From Flavobacteriales bacterium UBA4466 (GTDB taxonomy: Bacteria; Bacteroidota; Bacteroidia; Flavobacteriales_D; Sanyastnellaceae): DNA of 64,000 nucleotides. Position 1 is the first letter of the stretch; each line of letters begins with the position of its first letter. The stretch is from NCBI GenBank assembly GCA_905182895.1, contig CAJJDD010000008.1, forward strand, positions 1-64,000, in the 5' to 3' direction. The translations under genes and the position numbers were made by a program. Shown here piece by piece: positions 4,193 to 22,649 of this stretch. A model generated the notes under the pieces. That model saw nothing but the letters and a program-made list of their open reading frames with translations. It was not told the origin of the DNA and searched no databases.

Positions 4193-4567
4193 TTAGTTGG
4201 TCACTTTTACCCTAACTTCTATCCAATAAGGTGTTTTCTTAGTATTAGCATACAATAGAATCTTTCTATACTGCCAGCCAAATTTTCCTTTTGTATCTAA
4301 TGAGATATTAATTTCGCCCTTTTCTCCAGGCAGAATAGGAGCCTTCGGGTAAACAGCTTTGGTGCAATCACACTCTACTTCATACTTGGAGATTACCAGA
4401 GGTAACTTACCCTTGTTTTCAAAAGTAAACACGTGCTCTAGTTGAGTACCTTCATGTACCTCTTCGAACTTATGAATTCTTTCATCAAAAGAAAACTCCG
4501 CATACTGTCCTAAAACAATAGCGGAGTTTAATATCATGATAAAAGCTGCTATAGCTTTTATAGTCAT
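4193..4567 (-). CDS. DUF1573-family secreted protein
   Basis: 'HVFTFENKGKLPLVISKYEVECDCTKAVYPKAPILPGEKGEINISLDTKGK' matches the DUF1573 pattern; signal peptide. Confidence 0.8.
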   Translation of the reverse strand: MTIKAIAAFIMILNSAIVLGQYAEFSFDERIHKFEEVHEGTQLEHVFTFENKGKLPLVISKYEVECDCTKAVYPKAPILPGEKGEINISLDTKGKFGWQYRKILLYANTKKTPYWIEVRVKVTN

Positions 4568-4572
4568 ATTTT

Positions 4573-5010
4573 TTAGTTGTTTACTGGAGCTCCAGAATCT
4601 TGAAGAACAGGTGTTCCACTTGAAGCCGCTAAAACAGTTCCTTTAATTCTTACCGTTTTTGTAGGGTCATTAACAGCGTTAGACGTAATAGTCACAGACT
4701 TGTTAATTGGTCCAGTTCTTTTAGTGTCATACTTTACTTTAACAGATGAAGTTTCACCTGGAGCTATAGGAGCTTTCTCACACTGAGGAACAGTACATCC
4801 ACAAGAACCTTTACATCTAGAAATAATAAGAGGCTCAGTTCCGATATTCGTTACTGTAAACTCACATGTTCCGTCACCACCATTTTCTATATCACCGTAA
4901 TCATGAACATCTTTATCCAACTCGATAGCTGGTCCAGTAATTAACTCTTGAGCTTGAACCCCAAAGCTGAATGCAAGTATCAACCCTAATCCTAAAATTA
5001 ACTTTTTCAT
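4573..5010 (-). CDS. DUF1573-family secreted protein
   Basis: 'FTVTNIGTEPLIISRCKGSCGCTVPQCEKAPIAPGETSSVKVKYDTKRTGPINKSVTITSNA' with signal peptide MKKLILGLGLILAFSFGVQAQ. Confidence 0.9.
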   Translation of the reverse strand: MKKLILGLGLILAFSFGVQAQELITGPAIELDKDVHDYGDIENGGDGTCEFTVTNIGTEPLIISRCKGSCGCTVPQCEKAPIAPGETSSVKVKYDTKRTGPINKSVTITSNAVNDPTKTVRIKGTVLAASSGTPVLQDSGAPVNN

Positions 5011-5206
5011 TTTCGTATTATTTTATTAGTTTTTAAATTCTATTTTACGTTTCAAAGATATGTGTAAAGTCCTTAATAGGTTACCATTTTAACAAGACAT
5101 TAACACACGTTTTTTGGATTATCCAACTATCATGCCTTTTATAGTCACTATTTTTTCTGGCTCGTATACAGAGTTACTGAAAATGGTCTATGCTTAGAAA
5201 AAGAAC

Positions 5207-5482
5207 CTACTCTTGGGAGTCGTACCTAACTTTTATAGTAGTAGACGATTTGGGGGATATTGGTGTTTTAGAACATATGGGAGTAGTGCATCCGCAGGAC
5301 CCTTTGCATTTAGAGATTATGAGGGGTGCGGTTCCCCGATTCGTAACCTCAAATTCACAGAATATAAATGAGCCTTTTTCTGTTTGTGCTACCTCTCCGA
5401 AATCATAAACGTCTGCATCTAATTCTATGGCAGCTTGATTAACGTAAAGGGGTGGTTGGGAATTTACTAGTATTGATAACAC
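5207..5482 (-). CDS. Third DUF1573 paralog, C-terminus lost to frameshift
   Basis: 'FCEFEVTNRGTAPLIISKCKGSCGCTTPICSKTPISPKSSTTIKVRYDS' aligns to the neighbouring DUF1573; after RYDS another frame resembles the rest ('RVGSFSK...'). Confidence 0.7.
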   Translation of the reverse strand: MLSILVNSQPPLYVNQAAIELDADVYDFGEVAQTEKGSFIFCEFEVTNRGTAPLIISKCKGSCGCTTPICSKTPISPKSSTTIKVRYDSQE

Positions 5483-5622
5483 AGGACAAAAACGTCCAGA
5501 ATTTATTTTAAATAAGTTTTATATATTTAAGCCAAGAGTACACTACGGCATGGATAAAGGTCAAGAATTAAGAGGGCTTTAAGCTTTTTAACGATAAATT
5601 AAACGAATAACGAAAGGTTAAA

Positions 5623-8600
5623 TTATCTTACAATAGTTACCGAACCGTAGATTTTATCGGCAGCTACTCTGTTTTCTATATCCTTACTAGAGTATTTAAG
5701 CAAGTAGTTGTATACTCCTAAAGGAACGAAGTGGTTTCCATTTTGATGATCACCTTGCCAAAAGGCGTCTGGATCTTTAGATTGGAAAACAACTTCTCCC
5801 CATCTATTAAAGATGAATAACTCGTATTCTACGAAGTCACAGTCATGTGCTACGTAAAAGACATCATTAATGTTATCGGAGTCGGCTGTAAATGCGTTAG
5901 GAATATAAATAGTACAGCTACAATCTGTAAGTGCTAGGTCATACTCATATATAAATGCCCCACAGGCGTTCTGCACATTGGCAGTGTATATGCCAGGTTC
6001 CGAAACGATAATTTCATCTCCTTCTGTTCCATCACTCCAAGTTACATTGCCGTTTTCTTCAGGAAGGTTGATAGTCCTTGCACTGCCTATACATAGGTCT
6101 AATTCAGTTTCAGGAATAAAAGGAATTTCGTGAACATGAATTACTATCGTGTCAGAGGCAGAACAATTCATCGAGGTTACCTCTACCCAGTATTCACCTT
6201 CTTCAGAGAATGTTTCATCTTCTTCAGATGAACCAGTACTCCAGGTGATGATAAAGTCATCTGCTATTCCTGCAAGAGAGGCTACAAATGATTGTCCTTC
6301 ACAGATAGAGATGCTTTCAGGTAGAAGAACTTGTGGGTCAATATATTCTAAATATGTGAATATAAGTGAGTCACACCCTGAAGTGGTACTTAATGAGTCC
6401 ACAAATCGATTGTTTGGTTCGTCAAAATAGATTCCTAAATCAGGAAGAGGTGCTCCTTCACAAACAGTCATACTTAAATCAGTACTTACGTTTTGATTCA
6501 CGGTGAGTAGTGTAGTTACCGTAGAGTCGCATCCGTTAACAGAGGGGTAAACATCCGTATATATTCCAGTAGAGGTGTAAGAAGAAGAACCTTCAATATA
6601 AGTTTCTCCAGCACAGATGTTAACTGTGTTAGATGAGCTCTCAAGTGGGTGAACTGTTAGATTAGTTATGACTATAGAGTCGCACCCTTGAGCTGAGGAG
6701 TACACGTCAGTGTAAAGTCCTGTAGCAGTATATTCTGCCGTATCTTCATATATAAGTTTCTCCTTCACATATAGATACTGAATTAGTGGAGGTAGATATT
6801 TCCAACACCGTTAATTCTGTTGTAACTATTGAGTCACATCCAAGTATGGTTTGATAAGTATCAGTGTAAATTCCGTCTGAGGAATAATTGGAAGTTCCTT
6901 CACTATAAGTCTCACCTTCACAGATGGTTATTACGTTAGTGAAATATTCTATTGGTAGCACAGTAAGAGTAGTAGTGACTAAGCTGTCACATCCAGAAGC
7001 AGTAGAAAGTGGCGTTATAGATGCCAGATTCTGTATATATATCGACACCTTCGTTATACGCTTGTCCCTCACAAATAGTCGCTAGTACTGTATTAGTTAC
7101 GAAATCACTTATTACTAGAATAGTAATTACCAATGAGTCGCAGCCTTCAGCTGTCTGATAGCTTTCTGTATAAGTCCCCGCGGTTTCGTAAGTCGAAGTT
7201 CCCTCGGTAAATGTGCTGCCTAAACATATTTCTACATTGTTAGTCTGTTCGATTTCGGGAAGTACTGTAAGGTTCGTTACCACTAGAGAATCACATCCAT
7301 CTATATCTTGGTAAACATCTTCGTATGTTCCTGTAACTGAATAGACCGATGTTCCTTCAGAATAACTGCCTCCCAGCACAAATTTCCACATCATTACTAG
7401 AAATATCAGTATCAAGGATAAGTAATTCTGTAATTACTAAGGAGTCACATCCACTGGCTGATGTGTACATATTCTCATACGTTCCAGAGATATCATAAGT
7501 AGAGGTGCCCTCATCATATACTTCTCCTGCGCATAATACTATGAAATTAGGGGAAATGAAGGCTTCATTTATTACTAGAACAGTTGTTACTAGGCTATCA
7601 CAACCTAATAGACTTGTATATAAATCAGTATAGGTGCCTGTTTCATCATAGATTGATGTTCCTTCTGAATAAGATTCTCCAGCACATAAAGAAATGTCAT
7701 TGGTAGTAGCGAGAACATCTACTACTGTTAATTCAGTAATGACCGTAGAATCACACCCTAAGGTGGTAGTGTAAATGTCAGTATAAGTTCCAGTTTGGTT
7801 ATAGATAGAGGATCCTTCAGTATAAGACTCTCCATCACAAATGGTAATAGTATTCGTTATAATCGGAGATGGATTAACTGTTAGAATAGTAGTAACAGTA
7901 GAGTCTGTACCTAAAACAGAAGTATATAAATCTAAATAAGTACCGCTATTAATGTATTCAGATGTTCCTTCTAAATAGATTTCTCCATCACATATACTAA
8001 GCGTATTTGTGACATCATAGCTAGCGTTTACCGTGAGAATAGTAGTTATGGTAGAATCACACACAAATATGTTTTCATATACATCTAAATAGGAGCCAGA
8101 TTCAGTGTATTCATTATCTCCTTCGAAGTAAACTTCTCCATCTGTTATAGTAACGAAATTGGTGAAGTCGTGAATCTCATTCACGCCTACTATTGTCGTG
8201 ACAGTGGAGTCACATCCATTTATTGTTTGGTAAAGATCGAAATATGTTCCTTCGGCAGAATACACATTGCCTCCTTCAATATAAGTTTCTCCTTCACATA
8301 GCGTAATTGTTACTAGCGTTTGCGCTTCAGGATTAATCGTTAAATCTGTAGTTACTATAGAATCACATCCTTGAACTGAAATGTACGAGTCTGTATAAAT
8401 CCCTGTAACACCATAAGTAGAAATCCCTTCAGTGTATGATTCTCCCTCACATAGTTCTATAACATTAGTACTAGTTATTACTTGGTCTATACTAAGCACT
8501 GTAGTTACGGTGGAGTCACATCCATTCACGGAAACATATATATCGTTATAGGAACCAGCTATCGAATATTCAGATGTTCCCTCGAAGTATGAACTTCCTT

Positions 8601-11600
8601 CACATATAGATACGTTATTAGTAGTAAACTCAAGAGGAATTATGCTCAGGGTTGTTGTAACCGTGGAGTCACACCCATCTGCAGAAGCGTAAAGGTCAGT
8701 GTAAGTTCCCGCAGCAGTGTATTCCGAAGCCTGTTCAAAGTAAGAGTCACCATCACATATGGAAACATCGTTGGCAGTGAATTGGTCTATGCAGCAGTTG
8801 ATAACCGTTAAGTTGGTAGTCACTACAGAATCACACCCAAGAGAAGAAATGTAAGTGTCAGAATAAGTTCCCGCAACAGTATAAACTGAAGCACCTTCAG
8901 TATAGGAATCTCCGTCACAAATCTCTACATCTACAGAAACAGAGAACTGCGTATCTACGGTCAGGATTGTAGTAATGATAGAATCACATCCATTGACAGA
9001 AGCGTACATATCTGTATACGTTCCAGCTGCAGTATAATCCGAAGTACCTTCAGTATACGTTCCACCTTCACAAATAGTAGGAGAGTTGGTAGTAGCAAAT
9101 ACAGGATTCACTGTAAGAACAGTAGTTACTGTAGAATCACATCCATCTACTGAAACGTAAAGATCTGTATAGGTTCCAGCAGCAGTGTATTCCGAAGCCT
9201 GTTCAAAGTAAGAATCACCATCACATATGGAAACATCGTTGGCAGTGAATTGGTCTATGCAGCAGTTGATAACCGTTAAGTTGGTAGTCACTACAGAATC
9301 ACACCCAAGAGAAGAAATGTAAGTGTCAGAATAAGTTCCAGCAAAGTATAAACTGAAGCACCTTCAGTGTGGGAATCTCCGTCACAAATCTCTACATCTA
9401 CAGAAACAGAGAACTGAGTATCTACGGTCAGGATTGTAGTAATGATAGAATCACATCCATTGACAGAAGCGTACATATCTGTATACGTTCCAGCCGCAGT
9501 ATAATCCGAAGTACCTTCAGTATACGTTCCACCTTCACAAATAGTAGGAGAGTTGGTAGTAGCAAATACAGGATTCACTGTAAGAAGTAGTGGTCACCGT
9601 AGAATCACATCCAAGAACAGAAGTATAAATCAGTTCAGTACCCGCAGCAGTGTATTCCGAAGCCTGTTCAAAGTAAGAGTCACCATCACATATGGAAACA
9701 TCGTTGGCAGTGAATTGGTCTATGCAGCAGTTGATAACCGTTAAGTTGGTAGTCACTACAGAATCACACCCAAGAGAAGAAACATCTAAGTGTCAGAATA
9801 AGTTCCTGCCACAGTATAAACGGAAGCACCTTCAGTGTGGGAATCTCCGTCACAAATCTCTACATCTACAGAAACGGAGAACTGCGTATCTACGGTCAGG
9901 ATTGTAGTAATGATAGAATCACATCCATTGACAGAAGCGTACATATCTGTATACGTTCCAGCCGCAGTATAATCCGAAGTACCTTCAGTATACGTTCCAC
10001 CTTCACAAATAGTAGGAGAGTTGGTAGTAGCAAATACAGGATTCACTGTAAGAACAGTGGTCACCGTAGAATCACATCCAAGAACTGAAGCATAAAGGTC
10101 AGTATAAGTTCCCGCAGCAGTGTATTCCGAAGCCTGTTCAAAGTAAGAGTCACCATCACATATGGAAACATCGTTGATGGTATTATACTCCGGATGAACG
10201 ATTAGTTCTGTAATGACAACAGAATCACAACCCAATGCTGTTTGGTAATTGTCTGTATAAGTTCCTGTAGCATTATAAATCGAAGTTCCTTCTATGTATG
10301 TTTCTCCTTCACACATTGCAACGCTTACAGTGCTTTCAAAAGTTTCTCCTACAGATAAAACCGTAGTAACTATACTGTCACAACCAAGAGTGCTGATGTA
10401 TATGTCTGTATATGTTCCTGTAGCATCATAAATCGAACTTCCTTCAGTGTAAGTTTCACCAGCACAAATGTTGATGTTATTGGTTACTTCATACTGAGAG
10501 TCGACACTTAGAATAGTGGTAATAATAGAATCACAGCCGCTTATTGTGGTGTAAGTATCTGTGTAAACGCCTTCTTCGGTGTATTCGCTAGTGCCTTCTA
10601 AATAAGCGCCTCCTACACAAATGCTCGATGTATTGGTTATATCATAGATAGGATTCACAGTAAGAACAGTAGTTACTGTAGAATCGCATCCTGCTGCAGA
10701 AGTATATGCATCTGTAAATACTCCGCTTGCTGAATAAACAGAAGAACCTTCTGAATAAGTATCTCCATCGCAAATCTCCACTGTATTAGTTACTTCATAC
10801 TGAGAGTCGACACTTAGAATAGTGGTAATAATAGAATCACAGCCGTTTATAGAAGTGTACATATCGGTATACGTTCCAGCAGTAGTATAATCCGAAGTAC
10901 CTTCAGTATACGTTCCACCTTCACAAATAGTAGGAGAGTTGGTAGTAGCTGTATTCTGGGTTTACAGTTAATACGGTAGTTACCACAGAATCACACCCTA
11001 AACTAGACGTGTAAGAATCGGTAAACACTCCAGAGACAGAATAAACAGAAGCACCCTCGGTGTAATCATCACCATCACAGATAAATACATCATTAGAAAT
11101 GCTGTAAATAGGATTTAAGGTTAGCTCAGTAATGATGGTAGAATCACAACCTAATATAGATTGGTAAATGTCTGTGTATGTTCCAGAAGCATCGTAAATC
11201 GAAGTTCCTTCTATATAAGTTTCTCCTTCGCATATAGATACAGTATTGGTAAACTCGAAATCCTCACTAACGGCCAGGATGGTAGTTACCACAGAATCAC
11301 ACCCAATAGTGCTAGGATAAGTATTCTCGTATGTTCCAGAGGTATTGTAAACAGTAGTTCCTTCTGTATAAGATTCTCCTTCGCAGATGTTCACTGTATT
11401 GGTAACTTCAAACTGTGAAGCCACAGATAAGATACTGGTTACGGTAGAATCACATCCATTTATGCTTGAATAGACATCTATAAAGGTTCCAGGTTCTGTG
11501 TATGTGTTGGTTCCTTCCTCATAAACTCCTCCTTCGCATATACTTGGAGAATTCGTAACACTATAAACAGGGGCTACTGTAAGAATCGTAGTTACGATAG

Positions 11601-14600
11601 AGTCGCATCCGTTTACTGTGGAGTATAAGTCGGTATAAACACCTTGATCAACATAAGCTGAAATTCCTTCTATGTAAGTTTCTCCATCACAGATAGTGAT
11701 TGTATTGGTCTGCGTTGCAACGCTAAACACTTCTAATACCGTGATGATAATAGAATCACAGCCGTTTGCTGTGAGGTAAACATCTGTATAGGTTCCAGTG
11801 GTAGTATAAAAAGAAGTTCCTTCGATGTGCGTTTCCCCATCACAAATAGCTACTTGATTAGTGCTAGCATAAACTGGATTCACTGTGAGTTCTGTGGTTA
11901 CAATAGAATCACATCCTTGAACAGAAGTGTAAACATCTTGATAGCTTCCAGTGGTCATGTAATCACTAGCTCCTTCTTCATAAACATCGCCTTGACAAAT
12001 AGAAACAGAATTGGTTACGCTTAGAATTGGGTTTACTGTTAGAAGAGTAGTGATAGTAGAGTCACATCCATTTATAGAAAGGTAATCATCTGTATAAGTT
12101 CCAGAAGTAGTTATTGGCTAGTTCCTTCTGAGTAGGTTTCACCTTCGCAAATAGTAATAGAATTAGTAGCAGTAAATTCAGGATTAACTGTAAGAATGGT
12201 AGTTACTGTAGAATCACATCCATTCACTGTAAGATATTCATCAGTGTAAGTTCCATTGGTGTTGTAAATACTAGTTCCTTCTGTATACGTTTCTCCCTCA
12301 CAAATAGAGATGCTATTGGTCACAACTGCTACTGGGTTTACTGTTAGGATTGTGGTAATTATAGAGTCACATCCGTTTACAGTGAGGTAATTATCTGTGT
12401 AATTTCCAGAAGCGTTATAATCAGAAGTTCCTTCAGAATAAGTTTCCCCTTGGCATATTACTGGTTCATTGGTAATGTCAAACGTAAGGTTGACAGTAAG
12501 AATCGTAGTAACCACAGAGTCGCATCCAGCAGCTGATGTGTAAACGTCTTCATAAACTCCAGAAGTAGTGTAAGTAGAAGTCCCTTCTGTATGGGTTTCT
12601 CCATTACAGATGCTAGTATTTATGGTGTTTAAAACCACAGGAATCACAGTAATAGTAGTGGTCACCGTAGAATCACATCCAAGAACAGAAGTATAAACAT
12701 TCACCACATCCTGAGCCGTAGTGTAATCGGTTCCATTCACTGTAGCAGTTTCCCCATCGCATATCGTTACTGATTCATTAAAGGTCACCAGAGGATTTAC
12801 CACAATGGTAGTGGTCACCGTAGAATCACATCCAAGAACAGAAGGATAAACATTCACCACATCTTGAGCCGTAGTGTAAGTCGGTTCCATTCACTGTAGC
12901 AGTTTCCCCATCACATATCGTTACTGATTCATTAAAGGTTACCAGAGGATTTACCACAATGGTAGTGGTCACCGTAGAATCACATCCAAGAACAGAAGTA
13001 TAAACATTCACCACATCTTGAGCCGTAGTGTAATCGGTTCCATTCACTGTAGCAGTTTCCCCATCACATATCGTTACTGATTCATTAAAGGTTACCAGAG
13101 GATTTACCACAATGGTAGTGGTCACCGTAGAATCACATCCAAGAACAGAAGGATAAACATTCACCACATCTTGAGCCGTAGTGTAATCGGTTCCATTCAC
13201 TGTAGCAGTTTCCCCATCACATATCGTTACTGATTCATTAAAGGTTACCAGAGGATTTACCACAATGGTAGTGGTCACCGTAGAATCACATCCAAGAACA
13301 GAAGTATAAACATTCACCACATCTTGAGCCGTAGTGTAATCGGTTCCATTCACTGTAGCAGTTTCCCCATCACATATCGTTACTGATTCATTAAAGGTTA
13401 CCAGAGGATTTACCACAATGGTAGTGGTCACCGTAGAATCACATCCAAGAACAGAAGTATAAACATTCACCACATCTTGAGCCGTAGTGTAATCGGTTCC
13501 ATTCACTGTAGCAGTTTCCCCATCACATATCGTTACTGATTCATTAAAGGTTACCAGAGGATTTACCACAATGGTAGTGGTCACCGTAGAATCACATCCA
13601 AGAACAGAAGTATAAACATTCACCACATCTTGAGCCGTAGTGTAATCGGTTCCATTCACTGTAGCAGTTTCCCCATCGCATATCGTTACTGATTCATTAA
13701 AGGTTACCAGAGGATTTACCACAATGGTAGTGGTCACCGTAGAATCACATCCAAGAACAGAAGGATAAACATTCACCACATCTTGAGCCGTAGTGTAATC
13801 GGTTCCATTCACTGTAGCAGTTTCCCCATCACATATCGTTACTGATTCATTAAAGGTTACCAGAGGATTTACCACAATGGTAGTGGTCACCGTAGAATCA
13901 CATCCAAGAACAGAAGGATAAACATTCACCACATCTTGAGCCGTAGTGTAATCGGTTCCATTCACTGTAGCAGTTTCCCCATCACATATCGTTACTGATT
14001 CATTAAAGGTCACCAGAGGATTTACCACAATGGTAGTGGTCACCGTAGAATCACATCCAAGAACAGAAGTATAAACATTCACCACATCTTGAGCCGTAGT
14101 GTAATCGGTTCCATTCACTGTAGCAGTTTCCCCATCACATATCGTTACTGATTCATTAAAGGTTACCAGAGGATTTACCACAATGGTAGTGGTCACCGTA
14201 GAATCACATCCAAGAACAGAAGTATAAACATTCACCACATCTTGAGCCGTAGTGTAATCGGTTCCATTCACTGTAGCAGTTTCCCCATCACATATCGTTA
14301 CTGATTCATTAAAGGTTACCAGAGGATTTACCACAATGGTAGTGGTCACCGTAGAATCACATCCAAGAACAGAAGTATAAACATTCACCACATCTTGCGC
14401 AGTCGAATAAGTAGTTCCATTCACTGTAGCAGTTTCCCCATCACATATCGTTACTGATTCATCAAAGGTTACCAGAGGATTTACCACAATGGTAGTGGTC
14501 ACCGTAGAATCACATCCAAGAACAGACGGATAAACATTCACCACATCTTGAGCCGTAGTGTAATCGGTTCCATTCACTGTAGCAGTTTCCCCATCACATA

Positions 14601-17600
14601 TCGTTACTGATTCATTAAAGGTTACCAGAGGATTTACCACAATGGTAGTGGTCACCGTAGAATCACATCCAAGAACAGAAGTATAAACATTCACCACATC
14701 CTGAGCCGTAGTGTAATCGGTTCCATTCACTGTAGCAGTTTCCCCATCGCATATCGTTACTGATTCATTAAAGGTTACCAGAGGATTTACCACAATGGTA
14801 GTGGTCACCGTAGAATCACATCCAAGAACAGAAGTATAAACATTCACCACATCCTGAGCCGTAGTGTAATCGGTTCCATTCACTGTAGCAGTTTCCCCAT
14901 CACATATCGTTACTGATTCATTAAAGGTTACCAGAGGATTTACCACAATGGTAGTGGTCACCGTAGAATCACATCCAAGAACAGAAGGATAAACATTCAC
15001 CACATCTTGAGCCGCAGTGTAATCGGTTCCATTCACTGTAGCAGTTTCCCCATCGCATATCGTTACTGATTCATTAAAGGTTACCAGAGGATTTACCACA
15101 ATGGTAGTGGTCACCGTAGAATCACATCCAAGAACAGAAGTATAAACATTCACCACATCTTGAGCCGTAGTGTAATCGGTTCCATTCACTGTAGCAGTTT
15201 CCCCATCACATATCGTTACTGATTCATTAAAGGTTACCAGAGGATTTACCACAATGGTAGTGGTCACCGTAGAATCACATCCAAGAACAGAAGGATAAAC
15301 ATTCACCACATCTTGAGCCGTAGTGTAAGTCGGTTCCATTCACTGTAGCAGTTTCCCCATCGCAGATCGTTACTGATTCATTAAAGGTTACCAGAGGATT
15401 TACCACAATGGTAGTGGTCACCGTAGAATCACATCCAAGAACAGAAGGATAAACATTCACCACATCTTGAGCCGTAGTGTAATCGGTTCCATTCACTGTA
15501 GCAGTTTCCCCATCGCATATCGTTACTGATTCATTAAAGGTTTCCAGAGGATTTACCACAATGGTAGTGGTCACTGTAGAATCACATCCAAGAACAGAAG
15601 GATAAACATTCACCACATCTTGAGCCGCAGTGTAATCGGTTCCATTCACTGTAGCAGTTTCCCCATCACATATCGTTACTGATTCATTAAAGGTTACCAG
15701 AGGATTTACCACAATGGTAGTGGTCACCGTAGAATCACATCCAAGAACAGAAGGATAAACATTCACCACATCTTGAGCCGTAGTGTAATCGGTTCCATTC
15801 ACTGTAGCAGTTTCCCCATCGCAGATCGTTACTGATTCATTAAAGGTTACCAGAGGATTTACCACAATGGTAGTGGTCACCGTAGAATCACATCCAAGAA
15901 CAGAAGTATAAACATTCACCACATCTTGAGCCGTAGTGTAATCGGTTCCATTCACTGTAGCAGTTTCCCCATCACATATCGTTACTGATTCATTAAAGGT
16001 TACCAGAGGATTTACCACAATGGTAGTGGTCACCGTAGAATCACATCCAAGAACAGAAGGATAAACATTCACCACATCTTGAGCCGTAGTGTAATCGGTT
16101 CCATTCACTGTAGCAGTTTCCCCATCGCATATCGTTACTGATTCATTAAAGGTTACCAGAGGATTTACCACAATGGTAGTGGTCACCGTAGAATCACATC
16201 CAAGAACAGAAGTATAAACATTCACCACATCTTGAGCCGCAGTGTAATCGGTTCCATTCACTGTAGCAGTTTCCCCATCACATATCGTTACTGATTCATT
16301 AAAGGTTACCAGAGGATTTACCACAATGGTAGTGGTCACCGTAGAATCACATCCAAGAACAGAAGTATAAACATTCACCACATCTTGAGCCGTAGTGTAA
16401 TCGGTTCCATTCACTGTAGCAGTTTCCCCATCACATATCGTTACTGATTCATTAAAGGTTACCAGAGGATTTACCACAATGGTAGTGGTCACCGTAGAAT
16501 CACATCCAAGAACAGAAGGATAAACATTCACCACATCTTGAGCCGTAGTGTAATCGGTTCCATTCACTGTAGCAGTTTCCCCATCACATATCGTTACTGA
16601 TTCATTAAAGGTTACCAGAGGATTTACCACAATGGTAGTGGTCACCGTAGAATCACATCCAAGAACAGAAGTATAAACATTCACCACATCTTGAGCCGCA
16701 GTGTAATCGGTTCCATTCACTGTAGCAGTTTCCCCATCGCATATCGTTACTGATTCATTAAAGGTTACCAGAGGATTTACCACAATGGTAGTGGTCACCG
16801 TAGAATCACATCCAAGAACAGAAGTATAAACATTCACCACATCTTGAGCCGTAGTGTAATCGGTTCCATTCACTGTAGCAGTTTCCCCATCGCATATCGT
16901 TACTGATTCATTAAAGGTTACCAGAGGATTTACCACAATGGTAGTGGTCACCGTAGAATCACATCCAAGAACAGAAGTATAAACATTCACCACATCTTGA
17001 GCCGTAGTGTAATCGGTTCCATTCACTGTAGCAGTTTCCCCATCGCAGATCGTTACTGATTCATTAAAGGTTACCAGAGGATTTACCACAATGGTAGTGG
17101 TCACCGTAGAATCACATCCAAGAACAGAAGTATAAACATTCACCACATCTTGAGCCGCAGTGTAATCGGTTCCATTCACTGTAGCAGTTTCCCCATCGCA
17201 TATCGTTACTGATTCATTAAAGGTTACCAGAGGATTTACCACAATGGTAGTGGTCACCGTAGAATCACATCCAAGAACAGAAGTATAAACATTCACCACA
17301 TCCTGAGCCGTAGTGTAATCGGTTCCATTCACTGTAGCAGTTTCCCCATCGCAGATCGTTACTGATTCATTAAAGGTTACCAGAGGATTTACCACAATGG
17401 TAGTGGTCACCGTAGAATCACATCCAAGAACAGAAGTATAAACATTCACCACATCTTGAGCCGTAGTGTAATCGGTTCCATTCACTGTAGCAGTTTCCCC
17501 ATCACATATCGTTACTGATTCATTAAAGGTTACCAGAGGATTTACCACAATGGTAGTGGTCACCGTAGAATCACATCCAAGAACAGAAGTATAAACATTC

Positions 17601-19876
17601 ACCACATCTTGAGCCGTAGTGACCCCCTCAATGTCTATCGTTTCTCCATCGCATAAGTCTAGGTTGATAGTTGTAGTTTGAGGGAAAGCAAAGAATATAT
17701 TTAAAGTTACAGTGGAATCTTGAGTGCAGTATTGACTGTCAAAGACATCTGTATAAGTTCCAGAAGTAGTTATTGGGTTCCCATTAAAGATGTAAGGTGT
17801 CCCGAAGCATGCTATTACGTTTGAGGTTGTTGTGGTTGGGTCAACTATGGTTAAATTAGTGATTACTGTTGAGTCACATCCTGATGCTGTAGCGTTAATA
17901 TAAGTGTAGCTGTAGGTTCCTGCCTCAGTGTAATAATCCCCATTTTCATTGTGGACTAATCCATAACAAAGTTGAATGTCCTGTTCTGTTACAATTTCAT
18001 TGAAATCTAAAACAGTTGTGAGTAAGGAGTCGCATCCATCTGCAGTTTGAAGCAAATTAGTAAAGGTCCCTCCCGTCCAATAGGTGTTGCCTGCCACTGT
18101 ATAGGTAGATCCAATACAGGTAGTTACAAATTCAGTATGCTCTATGAGTGGAATTAATGTAATGTTCGTAACGACTGTAGAATCACACAGGCTTGAAGTT
18201 AAGTAAGTATAAGAGTATGTTCCATCAGTAAAATAGGTTTCAGGCCCTTCAACATGAATTTGTCCTTGACAGAGTTCAATATCATTGACCGTGTCTGGGA
18301 TTATAGGCAGCACCGTGATTTCTGCTGTTACTATAGAATCACAGCCATTTACGGAAAGAAAGGTCTCTACCACCGTTTGACTAGTGAAATAGGTGTTCCC
18401 GTTATAGTCTACAGATGCACATCCTATTAGCTCTTCGGTTAAAATTGTTAGATCTTCAGGATTGTCTAGTTGGAACGAAACTTCTGTAGTGCAATCTTCA
18501 ACATCAGTGACATAAATAGTGTACTGACCTCCGCACAAGTTACTGAAGGTTTGTTCTGTTGAACTATTAGTAATAGAAGCTATTACAGAGTTGTCGATTG
18601 AGTTTTCTAGGGAGTAATCAAATGGAGCAGCACCGTTTCCTTCAATGACTATTTGCCCATCACATTCATCGAAGCATGATATCTCGTCAACTGTATAACT
18701 TGGATCTTCACAGCATGGAGATGGTGCTGTGAAATCTTCGGAATACTCACAGGCAGATTCGTCAGTGAATGATGCGGTTAGAAAGCATGGTGATCCATCT
18801 GCGCTTAAGCCAGTGAAATTAAAGTTATACGAGTTACTAAAAGGCGCATTATAAGTCATCGCGTTTCCAGAGCAATCTTGAAGAGTGAAAGATCCAGAGG
18901 ATGGAGTGTCCTCTAGTTCAATTTGACCAGAAAGTGTATAGGTATTAGCATTATCAGCACAAGGTGTGATTGTGTAGTTTATGACTATTTCACATAAGAT
19001 ATCACAATTGGTAGACCCTGTTCCTCCGGTTTGTTGTAAAGTAATATCCTGAACTACACTTGCGTAATTAGTGATTAACATTACGTAAACATCTCCTGTT
19101 TGAGCATTTGGTATGATAGGATATTCATCTTCCGTGGGGTCAAAACTACAATCGATAAGGCTTCCATTGGCAGAAGTAGGTGCTTGACCTAAGCTACCAC
19201 ATGCCCCCTGGGCATCATCTAGATCATCAAAAGGGCCCCATATAGCATAATCTATATCTTGCGGAGCATTAAGGTTCATGTCAATATTTCCAGAATCTTC
19301 TATTTCCAGATAATACCATGTCGGATTAGGTGTTAGGAATAAACAAGCATAATTATTTCCCGGATCTAAGAAATCGGCATACCCTCCATTAGAAGTTGCT
19401 GTAAAGGAAAGACCATCATCTGTACAGATAGGATCCATTCCTAAACAGCTAGTTGGGCCCTCCGACTCAACCTCAAAATCACAATCAGCAGTGGCGTTGT
19501 AATTAACACCTGAGCTTGGCAAAAAATCTGAGGAATAAATTTGAGAACCGTTTAAGGTAAGTAAATAAGAAACCTCATTCTCATAAATCCCTCCACCGTT
19601 GAAATAGACAAGTGAAATGTTATCACTTGTACATGCTTCAAAAGTTAATGCTGCTGAATCGAATAAAACCGTACCTGAAGCTACCGTAGACCCATTTACT
19701 TGCACTGTTACCGTTGATCCATCCCATCCATCCCCCCAAGAATCATACATGAAAATGTTGTATGAACAACATTGGGCCCCTAAATAGTTGATGCCACCAA
19801 TGCAGAAGAATAAATTTAAGAAGACAATCGCCTTTATTGTAGCTCTGAAGTGGGAAAAGTAAGACGGTATTTTAAT
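5623..19876 (-). CDS. Giant secreted repeat protein (about 4.7 kaa if repaired) with T9SS type B (gliding-motility-associated, CHU_C-type) C-terminal domain; split into many ORFs by frameshifts
   Basis: Consecutive minus-strand ORFs 15275-19750, 12826-15339, 12111-12890, 10921-11958, 9786-10862, 9291-9578, 7357-9291, 6987-7415, 6746-7072 and 5623-6768 share one repeat ('ICDGET...GTYTDxYxSxxGCDSxVTTxLTVNP'). C-term 'CSCTIYIPNAFTADSDNINDVFYVAHDCDFVEYELFIFNRWGEVVFQ...' is the type B sorting domain. N-terminal frame reads through to a signal peptide (see findings). Confidence 0.85.
6450..12640 (-). repeat. Diverged about 153-bp coding repeats of the same family
   Basis: Units such as 'ICDGDSYFEQASEYTAAGTYTDLYASVLGCDSTVTTVLTVNPVFATTNSPT' are 51 aa, as in the core array, but with low unit-to-unit identity. 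Confidence 0.85.
8640..10190 (-). repeat. Higher-order repeat: three copies of a three-unit block of about 465-468 bp
   Basis: 'ggcagtgaattggtctatgcagcagttgataaccgttaagttggtag' occurs at 8773, 9241 and 9706. Flanking units are repeated too. Confidence 0.85.
12640..17625 (-). repeat. Homogenised tandem array, about 33 units, exact 153-bp (51-aa) period
   Basis: 'ggtagtggtcaccgtag' recurs at 12961, 13114, 13267 ... with 153-bp spacing. Each unit encodes 'TFNESVTICDGETATVNGTDYTTAQDVVNVYTSVLGCDSTVTTTIVVNPLV'. Confidence 0.95.
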
Positions 19877-19914
19877 TCGTTGAAAAATGGTTAACTATGG
19901 TTTGAGGTCTACAG

Positions 19915-20036: not shown

Positions 20037-22649
20037 ATGGAAATTCCGAGTAAATACGACCCGAGAGAAACAGAAAGTAAATGGTACGAGTTTTGGATGA
20101 AAAATGATTATTTTCATTCTGAACCAGATGATAGAGAGTCGTATACGGTAGTAATCCCCCCTCCAAATGTTACTGGGGTTTTGCATATGGGGCACATGTT
20201 GAACAATACCATCCAAGATGTTCTGGTTAGAAGGGCTAGGTTACAAGGGAAAAATGCTTGTTGGGTTCCAGGAACAGACCATGCGTCTATAGCTACAGAA
20301 GCCAAAGTAGTTAAGCGATTGAGAGAGAAAGGAATTAAGAAATCCGATATAGGAAGAGAAGAATTTTTAAAACATGCTTGGGAGTGGAAAGAAGAGTACG
20401 GTGGGATAATCTTAGAGCAGCTTAAAAAGCTCGGTGCTAGTTGTGATTGGGAAAGAACCTCCTTTACCATGGATGAGACTTACTACCAAGATGTAGTAAA
20501 TACGTTTATTAGACTCTACGAAAAAGGGTTGATTTACAGAGGTGAGCGAATGATTAATTGGGATCCAGCTGCTTTAACAGCTTTGTCCGATGAAGAGGTA
20601 ATTCATAAGGAAGTAAATTCAAAATTATATCATGTAAGATATCAGATAAAAGACTCTAAAGAATATGTAACTATAGCTACCACTAGGCCTGAGACTATAT
20701 TAGGAGATTCAGCTATTTGTATTCACCCAGATGATACGCGTTATACGCATTTACATGGTAAGCATGCGCTAGTTCCGTTGATAGGTAGAGAGATTCCTAT
20801 AATTCTGGATGATTATGTAGATATGGAGTTCGGTACAGGTTGTCTTAAGGTTACTCCTGCTCATGATGTGAATGATTTTGATTTAGGCGCTAAGCATAAC
20901 TTGGAAATTATAAATATTATGAACCCAAATGGGACATTGAATGAGAATTCGGTGCTGTTTGATGGTGTGGATCGTTTTAAGGTTAGAAAGCAAATAGAGA
21001 AAGACTTGGAGGAGTCAGGAAACCTTGTTGAGGTAGAATCTTACCAGAATAAAATCGGCTATTCAGAGAGAACTGATGTGGTTATAGAGCCTCGCCTTTC
21101 ACTGCAGTGGTGGGTGAAGATGGATGACATTGTTAAGCCCGCGTTGCAAAGCGTAAAAGATGGTGAGATTAATTTCTATCCAAGCAATTTTGTAAACACA
21201 TACAATCATTGGTTGAATAACGTCAAGGACTGGTGTGTTAGTAGGCAGTTATGGTGGGGGCATCGAATTCCAGCATGGTTTTATGGACAGGGAGATGATG
21301 ATTTCGTGGTATGTGTTACCGCGGAGGAGGCTTTGGAAAAAGCTAAATCTAAATCTGGAAATGAAGCACTAACAGCAGAGGATTTAAAGCAAGATGAAGA
21401 TGTAATTGGATACTTGGTTCTCTTCTTGGTTATGGCCTATGTCTGTATTCAATGGTCTCCAAGATGAAAAAGAAGTATCTTACTATTACCCTACTGCTGA
21501 TTTAGTTACAGGCCCTGATATTATATTCTTCTGGGTAGCTAGAATGATTATGGCGGGTTATGAATACAGAGATGAGAAACCTTTCTCTAATGTTTATTTC
21601 TCTTGGTATAGTTAGGAGATGAGCAAGGGAGAAAAATGAGTAAAACACTAGGGAATTCTCCTGACCCTATTGAGTTAATAAAAAAATATGGAGCTGATGG
21701 AGTGAGAGTAGGAATGTTACTCTGTGCGCCAGCAGGAAACGACATCCCTTTTGATGAAGGGCTTTGTGAGCAAGGCCGTAATTTCTCTAACAAAATATGG
21801 AATGCTTTTCGTTTAATAAAAGGATGGGAGGTGTCTGAAAAAGAACAACCTTTAGAGGCCAAACAAGCAGTTAAATGGTTTAACTCTAGAATAGGAACTG
21901 TATTAGAAGAAATAAATGACAGCTTTACTAAATTCAGACTTTCTGAAGCTTTAATGTCTTCTTATAAACTGATTTGGGATGATCTATGTTCGTCATATTT
22001 AGAAGCTGTAAAGCCAGCTTATGGAGGGAAGATTGATCCTCGGAGTTTGAAAGAAACAATTGAATTTTTTGAGACTACACTGAAAATAATTCACCCATTT
22101 ATGCCTTTCTTAAGTGAAGAGATCTGGCATAGATTAGCTGATAGGCCAGAAAAAGAAGATGCGCTAATCGTGGCTAAATGGCCAGAGCAGGAGAAGGGTG
22201 ATGAATTATTGCAACGCGAATGGGAAGTGCTAAGTGAGATTCTCTCAGATGTAAAGAACCAAAGAAACCAATATGGCATAAGTCCAAAAGAGGCATTAAC
22301 AGGTTCTGTGAATATTAGCGGAAGATTAAATCAAGATTTCTCGAGGTTGTTTAAGAAATTAGGAAATTGTACCATAGATATTATCTCTGATGGTGGAGAT
22401 ACATCGCCAAGAAAAAATGGAGTGGTATCTTTGGATTTAGGAGATAAGCTTCAGGAAGAGGAAAAAAAGAATTTAGAAAAAGAATTAGAATACTCCAAAG
22501 GATTTGCTAAATCAGTCGAAAAGAAACTATCTGATAGCGATGTTTTATTATGGGCCCACTCAAAAAGAAGAAATTCTGAAAGAAAAAAATTAGCAGATGC
22601 CTTGGCTAAGATTAGTCAGATAGAAGAGAAATTAGAACAAATGAAATAA
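20037..22649 (+). CDS. valS: Valine--tRNA ligase (frameshifts near 21.40 and 21.61 kb)
   Basis: '[51 protein letters not shown]', '[10 protein letters not shown]' and '[12 protein letters not shown]' across ORFs 20037-21467, 21406-21615 and 21636-22649. Confidence 0.96.

Follow-up and report, generated by a model that had tools for sequence, protein, structure and literature searches.

The window, a stretch of 64,000 nucleotides from Flavobacteriales bacterium UBA4466, exhibits a giant repeat gene, the product of which is probably a surface stalk exported by the T9SS. Each joint of this stalk would be closed by a disulfide bond between the first cysteine of one unit, C1(n), and the second cysteine of the next unit, C2(n+1). 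The array, the sorting domain, the co-loss of cysteines, the residue contacts and the distribution used in this model were all computed. In each 51-residue unit C1 lies in the motif 'ICxGE' and C2 in the motif 'GCDS'.

The repeat array and its sorting signal

The gene is composed of the following features (positions in the window):

19.9 to 5.6 kb, minus strand: giant repeat protein gene, encoding about 4,750 residues
18446..19894, minus strand: N-terminal region with a probable signal peptide (...AIVFLNLFFCIGGINYLGAQ), a 'YDSWGDGWDG' beta domain and further domains
within 18446..19894, minus strand: SprB-repeat-like stretch, recognised by eye
17678..18445, minus strand: five divergent leading units
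12627..17677, minus strand: 33 nearly identical 153-bp units
6325..12626, minus strand: 41 diverged units with a 51-aa period
8660..10176, minus strand: higher-order repeat of three units (468 bp; 3.2 copies, 94% matches) whose linker carries the insert 'VINCCIDQF'
8011..8163, minus strand: unit without C1 (ITDGE) but with C2 (VCDS), the same in orthologs L059 and L060
7858..8010, minus strand: adjoining next unit without C2 (GTDS) but with C1, the co-lost partner
5908..6324, minus strand: two Ig-like domains, each with its own Cys pair, recognised by eye
5683..5907, minus strand: CHU_C / T9SS type B sorting domain

The array contains 77 in-frame CDS motifs and two variant units (TQDST near 17.7 kb and GTDS near 7.9 kb), corresponding to about 79 units with a mostly exact 153-bp spacing. 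Tandem Repeats Finder assigns a score of 9553 to positions 12651-17621 (32.5 copies of 153 bp, 98% matches) and a score of 2699 to positions 8660-10176 (the 468-bp three-unit block, 3.2 copies), both far above chance. Within the 33-unit block the differences are confined to a few sites, and the mean pairwise DNA identity is 97.7% among the 30 normal-length units that follow the first one. Two-unit blocks of the 41 diverged units exhibit 37-59% identity to the first row of our alignment A1. When more than 1,000 units from the window and related loci are considered, the spacing is 51 in most of them, and conservation reaches about 98-99% at C1, at C2 and at the Asp and Ser of GCDS alike.

The C-terminus of the protein matches both CHU_C (PF13585; 62.9 bits, cut-off 27) and TIGR04131 (36.0 bits, cut-off 35). 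The source genome exhibits 27 CHU_C matches and 15 PorP-family matches, 11 of the latter over the cut-off, consistent with type B T9SS cargo for which PorP-like proteins act as carriers (review PMC11205867). The N-terminus is hydrophobic by eye, suggesting a putative Sec signal peptide, and a Pfam search with the N-terminal region (18446..19894) returned no match. A Pfam EAD6 match (47.5 bits) on the first ORF was rejected, such matches being weak, scattered or summed over repeats. On the minus strand of 19740-19894, no in-frame ATG, GTG or TTG precedes the probable signal peptide either in the window or in the ortholog, and an ATT is found at the equivalent place in both. The giant protein possibly begins with a rare ATT start, or its start is hidden by an error.

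Several other loci are related by position or by content. Just downstream of the array gene, three DUF1573-like genes or fragments stand in tandem (4196-5518, minus strand); one of them is broken, and two are found in the same order at the ortholog locus. In the source genome, a closely matching C-terminal half lies at a contig start (L016; G000 C14:1-1201), and another protein sharing the N-terminal domain is encoded on the same contig as the window (L152; G000 C8:110500-113320).

The preliminary description had reported a 14-kb minus-strand array of two-cysteine 51-aa units and had proposed a long adhesin or fibre. The array was recovered as described, its size being corrected from about 70 to about 79 units, and a long repeat fibre is supported. 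Two further proposals are supported: T9SS type B export, by the two sorting-domain models that both score over their cut-offs, and change of length through gain or loss of units. The latter fits the 33 near-identical units and the block of 468 bp that carries the 'INCC' insert, a situation resembling Periscope Proteins. This block is present in three copies in the window and two in the matching part of the ortholog, a difference between species, with the ortholog split at contig ends.

Pairing of the cysteines

Three possible pairing registers were compared through the joint loss of cysteines in 177 arrays with 1,436 units kept, leading units without C1 being left out of the count. In the C1(n)/C2(n+1) register, 1,254 of 1,259 inner junctions have both cysteines, five have neither, and none has a single one. 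Within single units, C1(n)/C2(n), both cysteines are present in 1,416 cases, a single one in 20, and there is no case of neither. The C2(n)/C1(n+1) register leaves 16 single cysteines. Fisher's test gives p = 4e-14 for the C1(n)/C2(n+1) co-loss, a value that is not a true probability, since the junctions are not independent events and the five double losses represent about two independent lineages (the genus of the window, and the protein L085 with its internal duplications).

L085, a Bacteroidales protein of 12 units, exhibits the cysteine pattern 121BB21BB212, with its first unit lacking C2 and its last unit lacking C1; its 16 cysteines at C1/C2 positions pair without remainder only under the n to n+1 rule. 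In the genome of the window itself, a two-unit array (L154) has only C1(1) and C2(2). The last unit keeps C2 and lacks C1 in L259, L244, L258, L226, L087, L085 and L207. Other array ends exhibit an additional "cap" cysteine, located 10-15 residues before the first C1 (49/138 arrays) or 13 residues after the last C2 (15/161 arrays). L112 and L121 have neither the last C1 nor the end cap, both of which are kept in their relatives L088, L089, L091, L099 and L110.

Most of the apparent violations of the pairing rule at first units turned out to be either foreign Ig-like, PKD or SprB-like domains, in which C1 is more distant, or units truncated by a contig end or a frame break. One first-unit exception (L153) is left without explanation, and L258 exhibits two inner exceptions in which C1 is shifted to 18 residues before C2. 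Some units without C1 in L273 and L161 have a cysteine near residue 48, which could replace C1 at the same joint.

Mean-field direct coupling analysis of 685 three-unit blocks (about 461 effective sequences) reveals three contact signals: within a unit, a parallel pairing of strands 1 and 4 (offset 39) and an antiparallel one of strands 3 and 4 (sum 66), and between units, contacts from the linker of unit n (46-51) to residues 31-34 of unit n+1. Each signal was recovered in eight half-samples drawn by protein, and shuffling unit 2 abolishes the inter-unit coupling signal. C1 (residue 7) is thereby placed beside residue 46, and the turn with C2 of the next unit (residue 35) at 46-49. The coupling between the C1 and C2 columns is itself uninformative, as both columns hardly vary. 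From these contacts, C1 and C2 of one unit would lie at opposite ends of strand 4, and C1(n) and C2(n+1) would share a joint. AlphaFold2 models of five units (pLDDT 88.9, pTM 0.49) and of two units (pLDDT 91.4, pTM 0.63) exhibit strands coinciding with those from coevolution, with a continuous strand 36-46.

These data bear on two other ways of accounting for the conserved cysteines. Each unit could be a bead stapled independently by its own C1(n)-C2(n) disulfide, in the manner of ordinary Ig-like stalk domains. The conservation of both cysteines at about 99% and the common size of the resulting 28-residue loop are in agreement with such an arrangement, but every unit missing one cysteine would then leave an orphan (20 single, 0 double), and the contacts put C1 by residue 46 of an extended strand on which C2 occupies position 35, a separation of about 11 residues; we regard an internal bond as very unlikely. 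The cysteines could otherwise be lost together by virtue of binding a metal at the joint with the Asp of 'CDS'. This residue is conserved as much as the cysteines, and RTX adhesins are stiffened by calcium in their linkers (PMC7493085). However, Asp and Ser are kept where C2 is lost (GTDS, KDS, NDS, TDS) and so are not tied to the Cys pair, while the cap cysteines restore pairs and not larger sites, making a metal joint unlikely.

Co-loss, cap cysteines and coevolution contacts together argue that C1(n) is paired with C2(n+1) and not with C2 of its own unit, presumably through a disulfide. The stapled fibre anticipated in the preliminary description is thus retained, and pairing inside one unit is not supported.

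Family, distribution and state of the reading frame

No family covering the 51-aa unit was found in Pfam, NCBIfam or PDB sequence searches. A comparison with Pfam, along the lines proposed in the preliminary description, gave no consistent match over a curated cut-off. Among 78 related five-unit blocks, no Pfam family is matched by more than four at E 0.1, and the NCBIfam matches of these blocks are spread over unrelated families. Matches of a few blocks to CBM_X2, PKD and similar Pfam families were discarded as weak, scattered or summed over repeats, and a PDB match to a J-chain (E-value = 0.17) as due to chance. Neither a name for this repeat nor an experiment on any family member was found in the open-licence literature. 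Ig_7 (PF19081), HYR_4C (PF23237) and SprB-repeat domains are likewise small beta domains found beside CHU_C in Bacteroidota proteins, but their Pfam models do not match the 51-aa units of the window.

The repeat unit is present in 45 of 60 relatives, in 305 of 395 genomes sampled from the class Bacteroidia and in 33 of 396 sampled from the phylum, the last two fractions coming from samples drawn differently and not being comparable. The plasmid collection that we searched returned no match. The unit is thus common across the sampled Bacteroidia, yet without a family model or a solved structure in the collections searched. A 634,780-bp record labelled uncultured phage (LR745206.1) exhibits a 1,207-aa open frame (L289; 1967-5590) that combines about nine units of the CDS type with a 'DSFGDGWNG' domain and an end resembling CHU_C. 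Either a very large phage encodes an entire surface protein of the T9SS type, or non-phage sequence is mixed into the record.

In the window, the array is divided into several ORFs by about ten frame changes. The adjoining class I tRNA synthetase gene is also split (20037-21467 and 21636-22649), and a syntenic neighbouring gene has a frame change near 1.4-1.7 kb. The ortholog of Cryomorphaceae bacterium ASP10-05a (L059; G002, LAQC01) has an uninterrupted frame of 1,689 aa across the corresponding part, with its N-terminal half at the end of another contig; contig C37 of this genome carries the matching protein start (69% identity over 240 aa). Given the broken neighbouring genes and the open ortholog, sequence errors are the most likely cause of the frame changes. 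The same +1 base (GACTTACAC) occurs at 15279 and 12830, in two otherwise distinguishable units 2.4 kb apart, so that the exact copy number and the frame are uncertain in the window.

The frame changes, the 33 near-identical units, the identical +1 base in two units and the 62.9% completeness of the source genome might also be expected of an assembly artefact or a decayed pseudogene. Yet the same kind of array is open elsewhere (L081, a 5,233-aa open frame with 68 units), the frame of the ortholog is uninterrupted in the corresponding part, and a neighbouring housekeeping gene is broken along with the array. We therefore consider an artefact or a pseudogene very unlikely.

The proposed fibre compared with known systems

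The stalk that we propose would be a chain of about 79 small beta domains, each 51 residues long. In each of them strand 1 (residues 1-7, with C1 as the last) would lie parallel to strand 4, which spans 36-46 and begins directly behind C2, and strands 3 and 4 would form a hairpin. C1 of unit n would meet C2 of unit n+1 at the joint and form a disulfide, successive disulfide loops overlapping in a chain-link fashion; at the array ends, the spare cysteine would be met by a cap cysteine or lost. With such overlapping bonds the shortest covalent path would be 23 residues per two units, where within-unit bonds would leave 46, so that the fibre would be nearly inextensible and could not be pulled out far even with its units unfolded. 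Its length would change by gain or loss of nearly identical units. Disulfides of a single polypeptide normally form on entry into the periplasm (PMC12635249); bonding of a first to a fourth cysteine would thus need isomerisation.

Bond formation, surface display, the mechanical role and adhesion by the tip are what we infer in this model. An adhesin role is plausible; no recognisable binding or adhesive tip domain was found in the giant protein. We think it likely that the unit represents an unnamed but common stalk domain of Bacteroidota, with first-to-fourth-cysteine disulfides interlocked dozens of times in a nearly inextensible fibre whose non-consecutive bonds would need isomerisation ahead of T9SS export. 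If true, joint stapling would stand beside calcium, isopeptide bonds and shared interfaces as a further solution for bacterial stalks, and would place a heavy demand on the correctness of oxidative folding prior to export.

Periscope Proteins (Rib, SHIRT, SasG/G5-E; PMC9704523) are also single-chain stalks of tandem domains with repeats very alike in DNA, for which length change by recombination is expected (PMC9704523); their stalks are rod-like and monomeric. Their tandem repeats of more than 50 residues with high identity have a counterpart in the 33 units of 51 aa (97.7% DNA identity). However, they are anchored by sortase or as inverse autotransporters, where the window protein exhibits a T9SS type B signal, and they have short rigid linkers or shared interfaces in place of the putative inter-unit disulfides.

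The grappling hook GhpA of Aureispira (PDB 9flp, 9fly and others) is, like the window protein, a giant T9SS substrate in Bacteroidota; GhpA assembles as a heptamer. It is the best structural match of the five-unit model (E-value = 7.5e-10, TM-score 0.38), and the two-unit model matches it with a TM-score of 0.51. A PDB profile search with the five-unit profile, up to E 10, returned no sequence match, GhpA included. Given these modest TM-scores and no sequence match, the fibre is kept apart and is not classed as GhpA.

The gliding adhesin SprB (PMC12635249, PMC9870892) is, as here, a very long type B T9SS surface filament, but the disulfide of that system joins the carrier SprF to the GldK track and not the filament repeats. 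The giant adhesin of Mobiluncus mulieris consists of many covalently cross-linked Ig-like domains, and the abstract of PMC10619420 places its cross-links (ester, isopeptide, disulfide, thioester) in each domain, where those proposed here would connect neighbours. Overall, the window protein would work like a fibrillar stalk; it has the features of T9SS type B cargo and shares a part of the defining features of Periscope Proteins, and its predicted joint staple would set it apart from the comparators examined.
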